Positions 3,430 to 38,551 of a stretch of DNA of 64,000 nucleotides are shown piece by piece. Position 1 is the first letter of the stretch, and each line of letters begins with the position of its first letter. Source of the stretch: Microbacterium salitolerans. Its GTDB lineage: Bacteria > Actinomycetota > Actinomycetes > Actinomycetales > Microbacteriaceae. A model generated the notes under the pieces. That model made no database searches. It saw nothing but the letters and a program-made list of their open reading frames with translations, and had not been told where the DNA came from. The stretch spans positions 124,001 to 188,000 of the forward strand of contig NZ_JAHKSH010000001.1 in the NCBI RefSeq assembly GCF_019720895.1, in the 5' to 3' direction. Both the position numbers and the translations under genes were made by a program.

Positions 3430-4836
3430 TCAGCTGGCAGCCAGAGACGGCAGCCAGAGCACGATGTCGGGCAGCAGGAACAGCACGACGATCAGCACGG
3501 CCTCGATCGCCACGAACGGCCAGACCCCGCGGAAGACGTCGCTCGCACGGACTTTCGCCGTTCCGGCCACCACAAAGCAGTTGATCCCGACCGGCGGGGT
3601 GACCATGCCGATCTCGATGAGCTTCACGACGAGTATTCCGAGCCAGATCCCGTCGAACCCGAAGTCGTTCGCGATCGGGTAGATGAGCGGCACGGCGATC
3701 ACCATGATCGAGATCGACTCGAGCATCATCCCCAGCGGGATCAGCAGCGCCAGCAGCAGCGCCAGCACCGCCCAGTCCGGGATGTCGAGCGCGGTCAGCG
3801 AGTCGGTGAGCATGTTCGGCACGCGCGCCACGACGAAGAACAGCGACAGCACCGCGGAACCGACGATGATGGCGAACACCATCGACGTGGTCTGGGCCGT
3901 TTCCTTGAGGGCGTCCACGAACTGCGTCATCATCTGTCGGCTGCCGGCCCTGCGGAACTCCCACAGCAGCATCACAGCCGCAGCGAGCGCGCCGATGGCG
4001 GCGGACTCGGTCGGGGTGAACAGGCCCGTATAGATCCCGCCCATGATGATGGCGAACAGGATGGCGAGGCGGACCAGACCGCGGTAGGGCAGTCGTCCGG
4101 GGCGCGCGTCGCCCGCCCCCGGGGAGCCGGGGCCTCTCGTCGAGGTGGCCGTCGCGGCTCCGGTCCCCTCCGGGGCCGCGACCGCGTCCAGGGTCTCGGC
4201 GAGTCCGCGCTCCTCGGCGGGAGCCGTCGCCAGTCGCCGGGTGCGGACCAGGATGTAGATCGAATAGGCGACTGTCGACAGGAGCCCGGGGATGATGCCG
4301 GCGGCCAGCATGGCCGCGATGGACTCGCCCGTCAGGATCGCGTACAGCACCAGGAACACGCTCGGCGGGATCATGGCGCCGAGCGTTCCCGCCATCGCCA
4401 CCAGCGCTCCGGCAAGGCTCGTGGGATACCCGGCCTTGCGCATCTCGCCGACGGCGAGCTTGGACATCGTCGCAGCGGTGCCGATGCTGGATCCCGACAC
4501 GGCGGCGAAACCGGCGCAGGCCACGACAGTGGAGATCCCCAGCCCCCCGGGGACGCGATGGAACACGCTGCGGGCGATCGTGAACACCTGCTCGGCGATG
4601 TTCGCCTTCACGGCGAAGATCCCCATCAGGATGAACATCGGGATGATCGTCAGACTGAACGTCGACGTCTGCTCGAAGGGAACCGACGCGATGCTCGCGG
4701 TGACGAAGTCGACATCGCGCAGCAGCAGCATGCCGACGATGCCCGAGGCTCCCAGAGCCAACCAGACGGGCATGCGGCTGGCCAGCAGGACGATGAGCAT
4801 CATGATGACCACGATGACGGCGAGCTCGGTGCTCAT
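3430..4836 (-). CDS. dctM: TRAP transporter large permease (DctM)
   Basis: This 468-residue membrane protein is about a dozen hydrophobic segments long, as expected for the DctM subunit that couples Na+ flux to solute import. It has the conserved SGSSIGTAATMSKLAVGEMRKAGY loop region (seen from about residue 112) and a GINCFVV motif near the C-terminus. A Pro/Gly/Thr-rich insert around residues 205-245 is a soluble loop. The start overlaps the dctQ stop as TGATG, so translation is coupled. The last gene of the unit, it faces mdlC tail to tail. Confidence 0.93.
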   Translation of the reverse strand: MSTELAVIVVIMMLIVLLASRMPVWLALGASGIVGMLLLRDVDFVTASIASVPFEQTSTFSLTIIPMFILMGIFAVKANIAEQVFTIARSVFHRVPGGLGISTVVACAGFAAVSGSSIGTAATMSKLAVGEMRKAGYPTSLAGALVAMAGTLGAMIPPSVFLVLYAILTGESIAAMLAAGIIPGLLSTVAYSIYILVRTRRLATAPAEERGLAETLDAVAAPEGTGAATATSTRGPGSPGAGDARPGRLPYRGLVRLAILFAIIMGGIYTGLFTPTESAAIGALAAAVMLLWEFRRAGSRQMMTQFVDALKETAQTTSMVFAIIVGSAVLSLFFVVARVPNMLTDSLTALDIPDWAVLALLLALLIPLGMMLESISIMVIAVPLIYPIANDFGFDGIWLGILVVKLIEIGMVTPPVGINCFVVAGTAKVRASDVFRGVWPFVAIEAVLIVVLFLLPDIVLWLPSLAAS

Positions 4837-5501
4837 CAGCGGCTTTCCTCCGTGTGAGGTCCATCGGCAGGTCGTTCGGGACCGCCGACCTCGTCGTCGG
4901 CGGGGTCGGCAGCGGAGGAGCCGCCCTTCCTGTGGCTGCGGGCCTCGCGAGCCGCGACGAGGTCGGGGTCGACGCTGTCCTCGCCCAGCAGCGGCTTACC
5001 GCGGAGAACGAGCACCACGTTGATGATGGCCACCAGCAGGAAGGAGGCGAAGCCGATCACCACGAGCCAACGGGCGGGCCAGAGCGGCCAGTCGATGAGC
5101 CCCTGACGCAGCTCGCCTGCTTCTGTGCTCTGCAGCGCCCGCTCGGACGTGGCGATCACGAACCACACCGTGACCACGATCCCGATGAGCCAGCCGACTC
5201 CGATCAGGATGCGGGCCGCCCGCCGCGGCAGCGCGTTCGTGAGCAGGTCGACGGCCACGTGGGAGTTCGTCGCCCCGGCATAGGCGAGCCCGAGGAACAC
5301 GGTCGCCACCAGCGCGCTCTCGCTCATCTCGAGCAGCCCGGGGACCGAGCGTCCGCCGACATTGCGGACGACCACGTCGATCGTGATCACGACCATGATC
5401 GCGATCGTCGACAGCGAGGCCAGTGCCCCGAGTGGCACGGTGATGATCGTGGCGATCCGGCGCAGTGCGTCCGGGCGCTCCTTCTCGCGGGTGCTGTTCA
5501 T
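4836..5501 (-). CDS. dctQ: TRAP transporter small permease (DctQ)
   Basis: This 221-residue protein has the four hydrophobic segments of DctQ in residues 20-165, with the family-typical EMSESALVATVFLGLAYAG stretch. A hydrophilic tail of about 45 residues rich in Asp/Glu/Pro is longer than usual. It pairs with DctM in the membrane and docks the DctP-loaded substrate. The stop overlaps the dctM start by one base. A strong hairpin (5521-5553) separates it from dctP. Confidence 0.9.
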   Translation of the reverse strand: MNSTREKERPDALRRIATIITVPLGALASLSTIAIMVVITIDVVVRNVGGRSVPGLLEMSESALVATVFLGLAYAGATNSHVAVDLLTNALPRRAARILIGVGWLIGIVVTVWFVIATSERALQSTEAGELRQGLIDWPLWPARWLVVIGFASFLLVAIINVVLVLRGKPLLGEDSVDPDLVAAREARSHRKGGSSAADPADDEVGGPERPADGPHTEESR

Positions 5502-15059: not shown

Positions 15060-15145
15060 CCGTGAACGTCCTTGTTCTCGTGGGGTGCGTGTGGGCCGTG
15101 CCCGTCCCAGCGGGGCGCCGTCGATGGCGCCCCGCAGCCCGTCGT

Positions 15146-15409
15146 GCACGCGGCCGGCGAAGCCGGTTCCGCCGGTGAGAATCTGCGCGTGGCGGGCTTT
15201 TCGTGCGTCATGCGGGCGGGCGGTGAAGCCGGTTCCGCCGGTCAGGTTCTGCGCGTGGCGGGCTTTTCGTGCGTCATGCGGGCGGGCGGCGAAGCCGGTT
15301 CCGCCGGTCAGAATCTGCGCGTGGCGGGCTTTTCGTGCGTCATGCGGGCGGGCGGCGAAGCCGGTTCCGCCGGTCAGAATCTATGTGTGGCGCGCCCTTT
15401 GCGCGTCAT
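15146..15409 (-). repeat. Four tandem 66-bp repeats carrying mini-ORFs
   Basis: Four exact-length 66-bp units lie at 15344-15409, 15278-15343, 15212-15277 and 15146-15211. Read in the operon direction, each begins with ATG. The first gives MTRKGRATHRF then stop, the second MTHEKPATRRF then stop, the third MTHEKPATRRT then stop. In the fourth the stop is mutated to Ser and the frame stays open. The first ATG overlaps the stop codon of the MaoC gene (ATGA). Each unit also carries a GGCGGA/TTCGCC hairpin. No ribosome site precedes the mini-ORFs. The array fills most of the 346-bp gap before the ligase gene. Confidence 0.9.
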
Positions 15410-21108: not shown

Positions 21109-21665
21109 TGCGTGAGAAGACTCTGGAGCCCACCGCGGGCCAGACCGTCGGGCCGTTCTTCAAGTTCGGCGTCGAGTTCGAGGGCATGAACGAGGTCGCC
21201 TTCCCCCACAGTCCGGGCGCGATCATGCTCGACGGTCGCGTGTTCGATGGCGACGGCAACCCGATCCCCGACGCGATCATCGAGATCTTCGGTGCCGACG
21301 AAGACGGATCCGTTCCCCGCGACCGCGGCACGCTCGCGCGCGACGGCGGCGGCTTCACGGGCTTCGGCCGCACGTTCACCGACGACGAGGGCCGCTACTA
21401 CTTCTGGACCCGCAGTCCCGGTGCGACCGACGAGGGCAGGCCCCCGTTCATCGCGGCCATCGTCTACGCCCGCGGCCTGCCCAACAAGCTGCACACGCGC
21501 ATCTACCTGCCCGAGGCCGTCGCCGCGGGCGAGACCGATGCGCTGCTGAGCTCGCTGAGCGACGCCGAGAAGGCGACGCTGACCGCGCGCCGCACCGACA
21601 AGGGCTGGCTGCAGCACGATTTCCGGCTGCAGGGCGACGAGGAGACCGTCTTCCTTGCCTACTGA
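21108..21665 (+). CDS. pcaG: Protocatechuate 3,4-dioxygenase alpha subunit
   Basis: This 185-residue PcaG has TAGQTVGPFF at the N-terminus and the RGLPNKLHTRIYLPE segment equivalent to the metal region of the beta subunit, but lacks the iron ligands, as usual for alpha. It assembles with PcaH as (alpha-beta-Fe)n. The pcaB gene begins inside its last codons. Confidence 0.95.
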   Translation: MREKTLEPTAGQTVGPFFKFGVEFEGMNEVAFPHSPGAIMLDGRVFDGDGNPIPDAIIEIFGADEDGSVPRDRGTLARDGGGFTGFGRTFTDDEGRYYFWTRSPGATDEGRPPFIAAIVYARGLPNKLHTRIYLPEAVAAGETDALLSSLSDAEKATLTARRTDKGWLQHDFRLQGDEETVFLAY

Positions 21666-22992
21666 CGCGTCGTTCGACCTCGGCCTGATCTCTCCCGCGA
21701 CTGCCGGGAGAGATCAGGCCGTCGCCGATGACGCGATCCTGCGGGCGCTCGTCGAGGCCGAGGTCGGCATCGTCGACGCGCTCGTCGCCGAGGGTGTCGC
21801 TCCCGCGGGGATCTCCGGCGCCGCGCTGCGCGACGTCGCCCTCGATGCACGCGCCCTCGCGCGCGAGGCGGTCGCGGGCGGCAACCCCGTCATCCCGCTC
21901 GTGGCGCAGCTGCGGGTGGGCGCTTCCGATGATCTGATGCCGTGGATCCACCGCGGAGCGACGAGCCAGGACATCCTCGACACCGCGCTCATGATCGTCG
22001 CGAAGGACGCCGTGGGGCGGATCCGCGCCGACCTGTCGCGCGTGGAGCGGGCGCTCGAGGCCTTCGCGGCTGAGAACGCCGATGTCGTCGCCGCCGGACG
22101 CACGCTCACGCAGCACGCCGTCCCCACGACGATCGGCCTGCGGGCGTCGGGATGGCGCCGCGGCGCGACGCGGGCGATCGCACAGCTCGACGCGCTCGAG
22201 CTCCCCGCCCAGTTCGGCGGCGCCGCGGGCACGATGGCGGCGATGGTCGAGATCGTGCGGGCGTCCGTCTCAACACAACGCAGTCAGAACGGCGCTGCCG
22301 AGGGGCGACACGCCGCGCAGGCGGCCGAACGACCGCCGATCGACTGCGTTGTGTTGGAGAAGGTGCAGGCGATCCGCGCCGCCTACGCCGATGCGGTGGG
22401 CCTCGCGCACCTCGACGCCCCCTGGCACACCCAGCGCTTCCCCGTCACCGAGCTCGGCGACGCCGTCACTCAGGCGATCGACGCGCTCGGCAAGATGGCG
22501 ACCGACGTCGCGACCGCCTCCCGCACCGAGATCGGCGAGCTCGCCGAACCGACGGGCGGCGGATCCAGCGCGATGCCGCAGAAGCAGAACCCCGCCCGCA
22601 GCGTGCTGATCCGCTCGGCCGCGCTGCGTGCGCCGCAGCTCGGGGCGACCCTGCACCTCGCGTCGGCGCTCGCGGCCGACGAGCGCCCCGACGGCGCGTG
22701 GCACGCCGAGTGGCCCGCGCTGCGCGAGCTGCTGCGTCTCGCGCTCGGCGCCGCCTCGCACGCCGCCGACCTCGCCGAGGGGTTGCGCGTGGATCGCGAC
22801 GCCGTCGCCCGCACGCTCGCGGCGACCGACGGCCTCATCGTGTCCGAGCGCCTCAGCGCCGTGCTCGGCAAGGATCGCGCCGCGGAGGTCGTGGCGCAGG
22901 TGGCGGCGGGGGCAGACCTCGCGACCCTGGTGGATCCGGCCCTCCTGGATCCGTCCGACTACACCGGCCTCGCCCGCGCCTGGACCCCATGA
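21655..22992 (+). CDS. pcaB: 3-Carboxy-cis,cis-muconate cycloisomerase with a repeat-encoded insertion
   Basis: This 445-residue fumarase/aspartase-superfamily enzyme has HRGATSQDILDTAL, the QFGGAAGT segment and the signature GGGSSAMPQKQNP. It cyclises 3-carboxymuconate to 4-carboxymuconolactone. The start is TTG 21655, inside pcaG. Between QFGGAAGT and PWHT there are 62 residues, where I recall roughly 26 in other PcaB proteins. About 29 of these (STQRSQNG to PPIDCVVL) are translated from a palindromic repeat at 22271-22356. The frame stays open, so the gene is probably functional with an enlarged loop. Confidence 0.9.
   Translation: MPTDASFDLGLISPATAGRDQAVADDAILRALVEAEVGIVDALVAEGVAPAGISGAALRDVALDARALAREAVAGGNPVIPLVAQLRVGASDDLMPWIHRGATSQDILDTALMIVAKDAVGRIRADLSRVERALEAFAAENADVVAAGRTLTQHAVPTTIGLRASGWRRGATRAIAQLDALELPAQFGGAAGTMAAMVEIVRASVSTQRSQNGAAEGRHAAQAAERPPIDCVVLEKVQAIRAAYADAVGLAHLDAPWHTQRFPVTELGDAVTQAIDALGKMATDVATASRTEIGELAEPTGGGSSAMPQKQNPARSVLIRSAALRAPQLGATLHLASALAADERPDGAWHAEWPALRELLRLALGAASHAADLAEGLRVDRDAVARTLAATDGLIVSERLSAVLGKDRAAEVVAQVAAGADLATLVDPALLDPSDYTGLARAWTP
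22271..22356. repeat. Palindromic element family A, copy inside pcaB
   Basis: An 86-bp unit is bounded by perfect 15-base inverted arms, CAACACAACGCAGTC (22271-22285) and GACTGCGTTGTGTTG (22342-22356). The same arms, with one mismatch, bound a 98-bp unit at 38454-38551, while the interiors are unlike. The element lies wholly within pcaB and is read through in frame. Confidence 0.9.
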
Positions 22993-22993
22993 C

Positions 22994-23065
22994 CGCGAGA
23001 GTGGCCGATCCCGCCCAGAGCGGCCGATCCATCGCCCACTCTCGATGACATCCCCCACTCTCGCG
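22994..23065. repeat. Palindromic element between pcaB and pcaD
   Basis: Perfect 11-base arms CGCGAGAGTGG (22994-23004) and CCACTCTCGCG (23055-23065) enclose 50 bases, which include a third partial copy (CCCACTCTCGA, ending at 23043). It fills the 94-bp gap between pcaB and pcaD. A hairpin could form in the pca mRNA, so effects on downstream expression are possible. It is another member of the repeat-element set of this genome, but only one copy is in the window. Confidence 0.75.
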
Positions 23066-27086: not shown

Positions 27087-27130
27087 CGCCGCGGATCCGT
27101 CGGCCTGCGCCGGCCGAGCCGTCGCTTCAG

Positions 27131-27755
27131 GTGACGCTCGTGACCCTTCTGGGCGCGACGAAGGGCCGCAGGCGTCACGTGAGCGGATGCGGCGGCGGCA
27201 CCTCAGGTGACGCCAACAACCCTTCCGGGTGCGACGAGGGGTCGTCGGCGTCACTCGAATGGATCCGGCGGTGGCGGTCGTGCGTCGGGTGACGATCGTG
27301 ACCCTTCCGGGAGCGACGAAGAATCGCAGCCGTCCCCGAGCGGACCCGTCGCGGGCCGTGGCCTCTCACGTGACGCTCGCAACCGTTCCGGGCGCGATGA
27401 AGGGTCGCAGGCGTCACGTGAGTGGATGCGGCGTTGGCGGCGGTGCGTCACGTGACGTTCGTGACGCTTCCGGGGGCGACGAAGGTCCGTATGTGTCACT
27501 CGAACGGATCCGGCGTTGGCGGTCGTGCGTCAGGTGACGCCAACAACCCTTCCGAGTGCGAAGAAGGGTCGCAGGCGTCACCCGAACGGATCGGTCGCTT
27601 CGCGTGACGCTCGCGACCCGTGCGGGCGCGATGAACAGTCATCGGCGTCATATGAGGGATCCCGGCGCGGGACCTGGCATCTCAGGTGACGCTCGGGGCC
27701 CTTTGGAGTGCGACGAAGGGTCGCAGGGGTCACCCGAACGGATCCGTCACTCGCG
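27131..27755. repeat. Array of eight ~82-bp tandem hairpin repeats (family F)
   Basis: Units begin with GTGACG at 27131, 27207, 27289, 27370, 27452, 27534, 27604 and 27686. Spacings are 76, 82, 81, 82, 82, 70 and 82. The consensus unit is a nested palindrome: GTGACGC, four bases, GACCCTT, twelve bases, AAGGGTC, four bases, GCGTCAC. A GC-rich linker (around GGATCCGGCGGTGGCGG) follows. Copies have drifted independently, and two (second and sixth) share the variant CCAACAACCCTTCC. The array fills the 660-bp gap between convergent GNAT and MFS genes, and the last unit runs over the MFS stop codon. The unit length is not a multiple of three and no gene is supported here. Confidence 0.9.
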
Positions 27756-29326: not shown

Positions 29327-29418
29327 CATGACGACGCCAATTCTCGTGCCTCGATCTCTCGAGCCTGCGGAATCACGCGGATCCGACAGCCGCACCATCC
29401 AGATCTGCCGTCGCTGTG
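29327..29418. repeat. Palindromic element family C, copy 1 (92 bp, degenerate)
   Basis: The left arm is CATGACGACGCCAATTCTC (29327-29345). The interior GCGGAATCACG starts 40 bases in, and the worn right arm is at 29400-29418 (12 of 19 match copy 2). Length and internal offsets are the same as the copy at 31755-31846. It lies in the 294-bp gap between the MFS and glycosyltransferase genes, which otherwise shows no gene. Confidence 0.8.
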
Positions 29419-31754: not shown

Positions 31755-31846
31755 CATGACGACGGCGATTCTCGCACCGTGCCGCACCGGATCCGCGGAA
31801 TCACGCTGATCCGGCCCGCAGGCCGATGAGAATCGCCGTCGTCATG
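31755..31846. repeat. Palindromic element family C, copy 2 (92 bp)
   Basis: Perfect 19-base arms, CATGACGACGGCGATTCTC (31755-31773) and its complement (31828-31846), enclose 54 bases including GCGGAATCACG. It occupies the gap between the convergent YdeI-like and glycosidase genes and ends two bases from the glycosidase stop codon, so it may also serve as a bidirectional terminator. Confidence 0.88.
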
Positions 31847-38453: not shown

Positions 38454-38551
38454 CAGCACAACGCAGTCGATTCGGGCAGCGGAGGCGGTGCGGACCGCGG
38501 AATCGCGGGGGCTGCAGCGGGCGGAGGCTCCGGATTGACTGCGTTGTGTTG
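38454..38551. repeat. Palindromic element family A, intergenic copy
   Basis: The arms are CAGCACAACGCAGTC (38454-38468) and GACTGCGTTGTGTTG (38537-38551), the second identical to that of the copy inside pcaB, around an unrelated 68-base core. It lies between the MobA-fusion start and the hemA stop, upstream of the former. Confidence 0.88.

Follow-up and report, generated by a model that had tools for sequence, protein, structure and literature searches.

Among the palindromic elements of Rickettsia, which lie in frame within protein genes, the sequence is homologous along the whole element from one copy to another. The MTES_1575 family of nuclease domains resembles Vsr-like homing endonucleases. 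In the REP/RAYT systems (REPtrons), short palindromes that are mostly intergenic and often paired accompany an enzyme gene with its own repeats, and repeat-specific genes occur where a genome holds several repeat families; the cited sections give approximately 600 REPs for E. coli K12 and describe a REP as a palindrome of 20-50 nt behind GTAG (or CGTC) (PMC8266576, PMC3733652). AbiEi and Rv2827c are described as binding inverted 23-bp repeats, 3 and 13 bp apart, in their own promoters (PMC7319586). MTES_1575 is a protein of Microbacterium testaceum, and in the cited section its domain is placed within a large multidomain protein, with no mention of repeats (PMC3710099).

Analysis of a DNA stretch of 64,000 nucleotides (the window) from a Microbacterium genome close to M. 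suaedae revealed a palindromic unit inside a pcaB-like gene. We consider it highly probable that this palindrome belongs, as a single copy, to a REP-like family with two components, a winged-helix/Vsr-like nuclease gene and dispersed inverted-arm units. The likeness to REP/RAYT lies in 31 dispersed units, in the intergenic position of 25 of 33 units and in an enzyme gene flanked by cognate repeats. However, the copy number is far below that of the REPs in E. coli K12, and the predicted enzyme is a Vsr-like nuclease with a winged helix instead of Y1_Tnp (HUH tyrosine transposase). Unlike REPs, the units measure 79-92 bp and have two separated arms, some positions of which vary without pairing; no GTAG or CGTC tag was seen by eye at unit ends with CACAACG or GAACTCCT arms.

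The N-terminal winged helix appears to be related to that of the AbiE type IV toxin-antitoxin system (AbiEi_4 in 9 of 40 nuclease members), but the repeats here are dispersed genome-wide and the 15-bp arms are separated by 56 bp in the unit at 22271 and by 68 bp in that at 38454, in contrast to the closer 23-bp repeats of AbiEi and Rv2827c. The partner protein appears to have its nuclease domain family in common with the Vsr-family/MTES_1575 REases and differs in its setting from the large multidomain host described for that domain. The pcaB copy recalls the Rickettsia elements; nevertheless, the units here are mostly intergenic, their interiors are mostly unshared and they are linked to a nuclease gene. 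An earlier note on this DNA had drawn the Rickettsia comparison, and it holds for the in-frame palindrome within an ORF but not for whole-element homology, since linkers of non-neighbouring units reach at most 0.71 identity; the comparison is an analogy only. A shared interior, as in MITEs of DDE transposases, was also not found in the units. Neither the enzyme nor the units agree with those of the tested families, although the organisation of the system is REPtron-like. A search of open-access literature found no report in which dispersed palindromes are connected with nucleases of the DUF559, MTES_1575, AbiEi or Vsr-like kinds; judging by their titles, three further papers that name MTES_1575 and 14 that name DUF559 deal with different topics.

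Palindromic unit in the pcaB gene

The host of the unit is a pcaB-like ORF of 445 aa on the forward strand (21655..22992; Lyase_1), which matched PF00206 in a profile search (E 1.6e-28) and TIGR02426 at E 1.2e-88 with 297 bits, below the cut-off of 356. The unit (22271..22356; 86 bp; no strand assigned) is read in frame, with 80 bp from CACAACG to CGTTGTG. Its left arm (22271..22285, forward strand) is the exact 15-mer CAACACAACGCAGTC and its right arm (22342..22356) is the exact inverted copy, with the 15-mer on the reverse strand, so that the 86-bp unit with perfect 15-base inverted arms claimed in the earlier note was borne out. The motif CGACACGCCG (22306..22315; no strand assigned) is near-central, as judged by eye, in several 80-bp units and also occurs in the pcaB unit of M. 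suaedae.

The same note had claimed an excess of residues at this place, and this was also found: by a similar measure the loop has 72 residues here and 41-42 in 50 of the 64 measurable homologues (80 scanned), giving approximately 30 extra residues, and the 86-nt unit corresponds to approximately 29. The first scan of pcaB loops used a motif that was absent from 39 of 81 loci; the repeat scan covered 80 loci with a looser motif, absent from 16. For 15 of these loci the match coordinates were copied by hand, and 4001-5390 was used for all others. In this repeat scan, where inverted repeats were counted solely if perfect and at least 13 bp long, M. suaedae was the sole one of the 80 other homologues with a unit-length repeat in the loop. 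A 14-bp repeat found elsewhere in the pcaB gene of Leucobacter weissii is GC-rich (GC-only) and looks like chance. Long loops were found in G187 (71 residues), Frigoribacterium sp. JB110 (63), Agromyces sp. Marseille-P2726 (63) and M. halotolerans (86), and no palindrome was found in any of them. In view of these long loops in relatives, a clean insertion of 29 residues is unsupported. What stands of the insertion claim is a copy of a dispersed family lying in frame; the part left without support is the insertion of the unit into a loop of normal length. The pcaB copy would occupy a loop tolerating approximately 29 extra residues, and would show a DNA-level element adding residues to an enzyme with the frame unbroken.

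The pcaB unit of M. suaedae occupies the identical place and has ACGCC arms, while the unit of this genome has CAGTC arms. An AGAAY variant is present on the same side of the pcaB unit in both species and is rare, being found in five of 136 arms in the unit set of this genome and M. suaedae. We take the pcaB units of both species to be orthologous and assume that one of the lineages has acquired a new specificity in both arms. The change of arms on both sides of this site is the strangest observation of the study; it fits arm rewriting, and stepwise selection would serve too.

Units in the window and in the genome

Two other units are present in the window. The second unit (38454..38551; no strand assigned) belongs to the 92-bp class, lies between two genes and has CGCGGAATCGCGGG centred on its midpoint. 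It had been described as having the same arms as the pcaB unit; the unit is real, but its left arm CAGCACAACGCAGTC has one mismatch to the 15-mer. The third unit (31755..31846; 92 bp; no strand assigned) has perfect 19-bp arms CATGACGACGGCGATTCTC of diverged specificity, and its centre CGCGGAATCACGCT, placed on the midpoint, has one mismatch to the class consensus. A lone arm-like match CATGACGACGCCAATTCTC on the forward strand (29327..29345; G000:C5:153327-153345), with two mismatches to the arm of the third unit, is possibly a decayed unit. An arm search of the window at up to three mismatches gave seven matches, whereas 100 shuffled sequences averaged 1.26 and never reached seven.

The genome searched comprises 3,457,863 bases in 21 contigs, and the window is C5:124001-188000. 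At up to two mismatches, 34 forward and 31 reverse arm matches were found, against two and two for the reversed-pattern control. The genome search for the 15-base arms had been proposed earlier as a check, and further copies were found (65 matches against four). Pairing of arms within the loci around the matches gave 31 units, a count that leaves out one 139-bp row joining the arms of two units. Eleven tandem doublets, with a spacing of 43-92 bp, hold 22 of the 31 units. Unit lengths are tightly clustered and arms are near-identical, while linkers are mostly unrelated.

Placement was judged with our own gene caller, which lists 33 units. By this caller 25 units are intergenic, 18 of them between co-directional, five between convergent and two between divergent genes. 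The remaining eight overlap called ORFs and include the pcaB unit; the other seven lie no further than approximately codon 160, where the caller may have set the start too far upstream. The units in this genome crowd on contigs C5 and C10. A terminus-domain (matS-like) idea based on this crowding was rejected, as the listed units of G158 and G203 are spread along a single contig. This genome also has a unit with ACGGC arms (CACAACGACGGCAGAACTC; L005:8316-8407), which points to remnants of another arm family.

Anatomy of the units

Anatomy was analysed in 96 units from hand-picked loci of this and related genomes. A unit was included if CACAACG and CGTTGTG together had no more than one mismatch and if 10 or more of 13 arm positions matched; this rule by itself makes CACAACG/CGTTGTG conserved in the set, and it accounts in part for the agreement at positions 8-12. 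The third window unit was excluded from the set by its arms. The length from CACAACG to CGTTGTG was 79-81 bp in 78 units, 92 bp in 13, 90 bp in four (every one from M. halotolerans) and 78 bp in one. The commonest arm in this genome is CACAACGCAGTCRATYYG.

Arm positions 8-12 vary among families, and the two arms agree in 79-100% of units in the 79-, 80- and 92-bp classes. Agreement at positions 8 and 9 is 97-100%, against a chance value of 0.30 for position 8 in the 80-bp class, a class that pools arm families and thereby inflates agreement. Position 13 (A or G) pairs at 0.50 (chance 0.50) in the 79-bp class, 0.58 (0.48) in the 80-bp class and 0.54 (0.53) in the 92-bp class. Complementarity at position 16 is below expectation in the 79-bp class (0.30, expected 0.46) and above it in the 80-bp (0.58, expected 0.39) and 92-bp (0.69, expected 0.50) classes. 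Folding of the core or linker is slightly better than in shuffled sequences (mean z -0.66 over the 96 units). Base pairing as the main selected feature was rejected on the position 13 and 16 data and the weak core folding, and some position 16 signal remains. The data are mixed, and on balance we interpret each unit as a pair of inverted sites for protein on double-stranded DNA and not as a stem kept by selection.

Analysis of the unit centres revealed the palindrome CNCGNRATYNCGNG at the exact midpoint of 12 of the 13 92-bp units with at most two mismatches; the remaining unit has five. At the same place the third window unit has one mismatch and an 88-bp GAACTCCT unit of G124, whose arms are unrelated, has none, against a background of approximately 0.03% of sampled window positions at 0-1 mismatches. 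Linker identity between tandem neighbours ranges from 0.46 to 1.00, with near-copies in some pairs only. Between non-neighbouring units the maximum is 0.69 within this genome and 0.71 in M. suaedae, against a shuffled maximum of 0.60. Since most linkers are not copied from one another, there is no sign of recent copy-and-paste. No target duplication was noticed by eye at the unit loci or in the syntenic M. suaedae comparisons.

Variants of this anatomy occur in related genomes. Units of G025 often have unequal arms, CACAACGTCGCTGATC on one side and CACAACGTCGCCATTC or similar on the opposite side, and arm matching is therefore not absolute. GGCGG-type arms are found in G136, G112, G020, G203 and G058, often with a second nested inverted repeat in the core, such as GACACGCCG...CGGCGTGTC.

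Putative nuclease gene adjoining the units

Genes were called in loci around units from ten genomes, and 301 proteins were clustered. The widest neighbour cluster was that of ABC ATPases (five genomes); this cluster and that of short-chain dehydrogenases are common families. A nuclease cluster found in four genomes was selected because units directly adjoin the nuclease gene, as they do in this genome, M. suaedae, G058 and G158. In this genome the gene lies outside the window (G000:C5:558193-559167) and is flanked by units. M. suaedae has two nuclease paralogues and two arm families, and each paralogue is flanked by units of its own family. A DNA match placed a fifth homologue between two units in M. 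halotolerans (G181:C5:70692-71594, in the L163 region). The matched stretch of this homologue contains one TGA and one TAA, and a shorter stretch is without in-frame stops; the gene may be broken.

Sequence comparison predicts the partner protein to be an AbiEi-like winged-helix DNA-binding domain fused to a Vsr-like (MTES_1575/DUF559) PD-(D/E)XK endonuclease. Aligned nuclease members matched, at E of 0.01 or less, PF18741 MTES_1575 (40 of 40), DUF559 (29), AbiEi_4 (nine) and Vsr (one). In five nuclease proteins scanned singly, MTES_1575 matches were below the Pfam curated cut-off, and no NCBIfam name was obtained above cut-off for these five. The best PDB profile match was weak (3hrl, E 0.014), as were the PADLOC matches to AbiEi, seen in two of three proteins with a best E of 0.0017. 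D205, E215, D217 and H222 are invariant in the 40 aligned members and are putative catalytic residues. A match to the nuclease was found in 190 of 198 genus genomes, many of these matches being distant. Several genus genomes have two oppositely oriented homologues separated by approximately 18-21 kb, as though a conserved block lay between them (for example G101:C38:213660 and 231842, and G018:C9:235438 and 253296).

Association of the repeats with the nuclease gene

Perfect inverted repeats 12 bp or longer, with a span of 70-105 and no more than 600 bp from the gene, were found at 46 of 70 nuclease loci and, by the same repeat definition, in 55 of 790 control windows, the latter drawn from pcaB loci only. 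At a minimum of 14 bp the counts were 36 of 70 and 18 of 790. The 70 loci are those of the closest homologues rather than a random draw, being the first 71 listed minus G206, where the gene lies at a contig end and no repeat was found. A repeat near the gene was absent in 24 of the 70 loci. A later set of 20 loci, partly chosen for known nearby units, had a repeat in 13 and was not pooled with the others.

Repeats are often upstream of the nuclease gene. In 18 genes they occur on both sides, and 17 of these have the identical arm on the two sides; among cross pairs of upstream and downstream arms from different genes, 31 of 306 match at that threshold and six of 306 at a stricter threshold, also passed by the 17 same-arm genes. 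Comparison of protein identity with arm similarity in 46 genes gave a Mantel rho of 0.27, reached by none of 2000 permutations; this correlation could be shared descent.

In the tested genomes, many further units carry the arm of the resident gene or its 8-base core. The prediction that genomes with a GAACTCCT-armed gene hold GAACTCCT units was borne out in G124 (51 units), G178 (31), G175 (20), G035 (17), G160 (10) and G169 (seven), against 0-2 such units in 14 other genomes and none for the control pattern in all 20. These 20 genomes were chosen after the flanks had been seen and consist of six predicted positives, nine with other arms and five without a repeat at the fetched gene; the pattern covers the 8-base core only. 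Two units bracket a nuclease homologue in G025. G142, a draft in approximately 480 contigs, has 13 units and gave no nuclease gene match, and G136 has 24 units and no repeat at the one homologue locus fetched. Among 27 order-level loci, three of them from the genus, any such repeat was found in 12, a count made without a control, and an identical arm on both sides in two (L247 and L253) only.

Distribution of the units among genomes

The comparison set contains one genome per species. Units with the exact inner arms were found in two of 98 genomes, namely this one and M. suaedae YZYP 306 (G043). Generic unit ends had at least one match in 63 of 198 genus genomes, this one included (reversed-pattern controls 0-2), and at least five matches in 26 of the 198, as counted from the table. 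The inner arms vary from genome to genome. The two arm families of M. suaedae are CAGTC and ACGCC, and one mixed-arm unit was seen among 50 listed of its 70.

Synteny with M. suaedae runs at approximately 72-90% nucleotide identity. At the syntenic sites some units occupy the identical intergenic place with conserved arms and diverged linkers, and others are present in one species only. One unit, at locus L006, has both arms changed alike (CATGACGCAGTC...GACTGCGTCATG).

Proposed system and alternative explanations

In the system that we propose, two protein molecules would bind the inverted arms through the winged helix, for which AbiEi provides the precedent. By analogy, the winged helix would read the gene-specific arm and a constant part of the protein would read the constant RATY and centre. 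The arm spacing would set the complex, and the nuclease domain would act at the constant RATY/centre elements. The gene and its flanking units may form an autonomous element from which the solo units descend. Binding of the arms by the nuclease and the way in which units spread are both inferred. Because linkers are not copied, any spread would be old or would proceed by arm rewriting rather than by copying of whole units. We put forward, tentatively and as the less probable outcome, a self-maintaining system in which the nuclease cuts or nicks its units and the arms are rewritten to the current specificity during repair, with either another unit or the opposite arm as the template. Under such rewriting sites would switch specificity in place, as at pcaB, where CAGTC is found here and ACGCC in M. 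suaedae with AGAAY kept on the same side.

A regulon, with an AbiEi-like regulator, units as operators and an incidental nuclease domain, would explain part of these results if the sites were kept for their effects on neighbouring genes. AbiEi-family proteins are described as autoregulating through inverted repeat pairs in their own promoters (PMC7319586), the repeats found here are often upstream of the nuclease gene, and arms persist at some orthologous sites despite divergence of the linkers. The 18 of 25 intergenic units that our gene caller places between co-directional genes agree with it as well, 3' end and promoter being indistinguishable there. However, convergent genes surround five of the 25, and pcaB has a unit in its interior; of the 18 genes with repeats on both sides, 17 have the same arm downstream as well, and the putative catalytic residues are invariant. 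We regard a regulon as unlikely. That the units are transcribed as stem-loops, acting as terminator or stabiliser and under selection for base pairing, is an improbable explanation: the near-perfect complementarity of the arms, the slight excess of core folding in the 96 units and the position 16 excess in the 80- and 92-bp classes agree with it, but position 13 pairs at or near chance, position 16 falls below expectation in the 79-bp class, pooling inflates agreement in the 80-bp class and the gene-specific arms are left unexplained. Membership in a known RNA family was rejected, as Rfam at E of 1 or less on eight loci gave six matches, all under gathering scores.

Non-autonomous copies of a known transposon family, that is an ordinary MITE or REP of a DDE transposase or of Y1_Tnp/RAYT, would share with these units their dispersal, terminal inverted repeats and patchy occurrence across species. 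Yet the interior is mostly not common to copies and the units flank a different enzyme gene; Y1_Tnp (PF01797) had no match in this genome, while the same search was positive in five of 14 control genomes, and membership in RAYT/REP was ruled out on this result. We consider this origin quite improbable. The pcaB palindrome taken by itself, lying in frame in a protein gene, could be read as a coding insert of the Rickettsia type unconnected with any nuclease; with 25 of the 33 called units intergenic, with mainly arms and centre in common among copies and with the units tied to a nuclease gene, such a reading is hardly credible. From the anatomy alone, an integron attC or an invertible segment was also considered as a possible explanation. 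Carriage by phage or plasmid was rejected, a partial homologue being found in one of 50,697 phage and four of 72,556 plasmid records.

If the two-component reading is true, the REP/RAYT logic, in which an enzyme gene is accompanied by dispersed palindromes of its own, has evolved a further time around a nuclease of unrelated type. It would also give a lead to the function of a protein family matched in 190 of 198 genus genomes. The 46 of 70 genes that display a flank arm would form a natural set of many protein-DNA specificity pairs, from which an AbiEi-type winged-helix recognition code might be readable from genomes.

Other repeats in the window

An imperfect 35-bp inverted repeat just past the pcaB stop codon (22994-23065) is possibly a terminator. 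Between syntenic blocks, at 27113-27743, a palindromic repeat of 76-82 bp (TGACGC...GCGTCA) occurs eight times in tandem; the counterpart in M. suaedae (L062:7351-7700) has a different sequence. A 66-bp tandem repeat is present at 15140-15403, with three overlapping 132-nt matches that are 88-92% identical.
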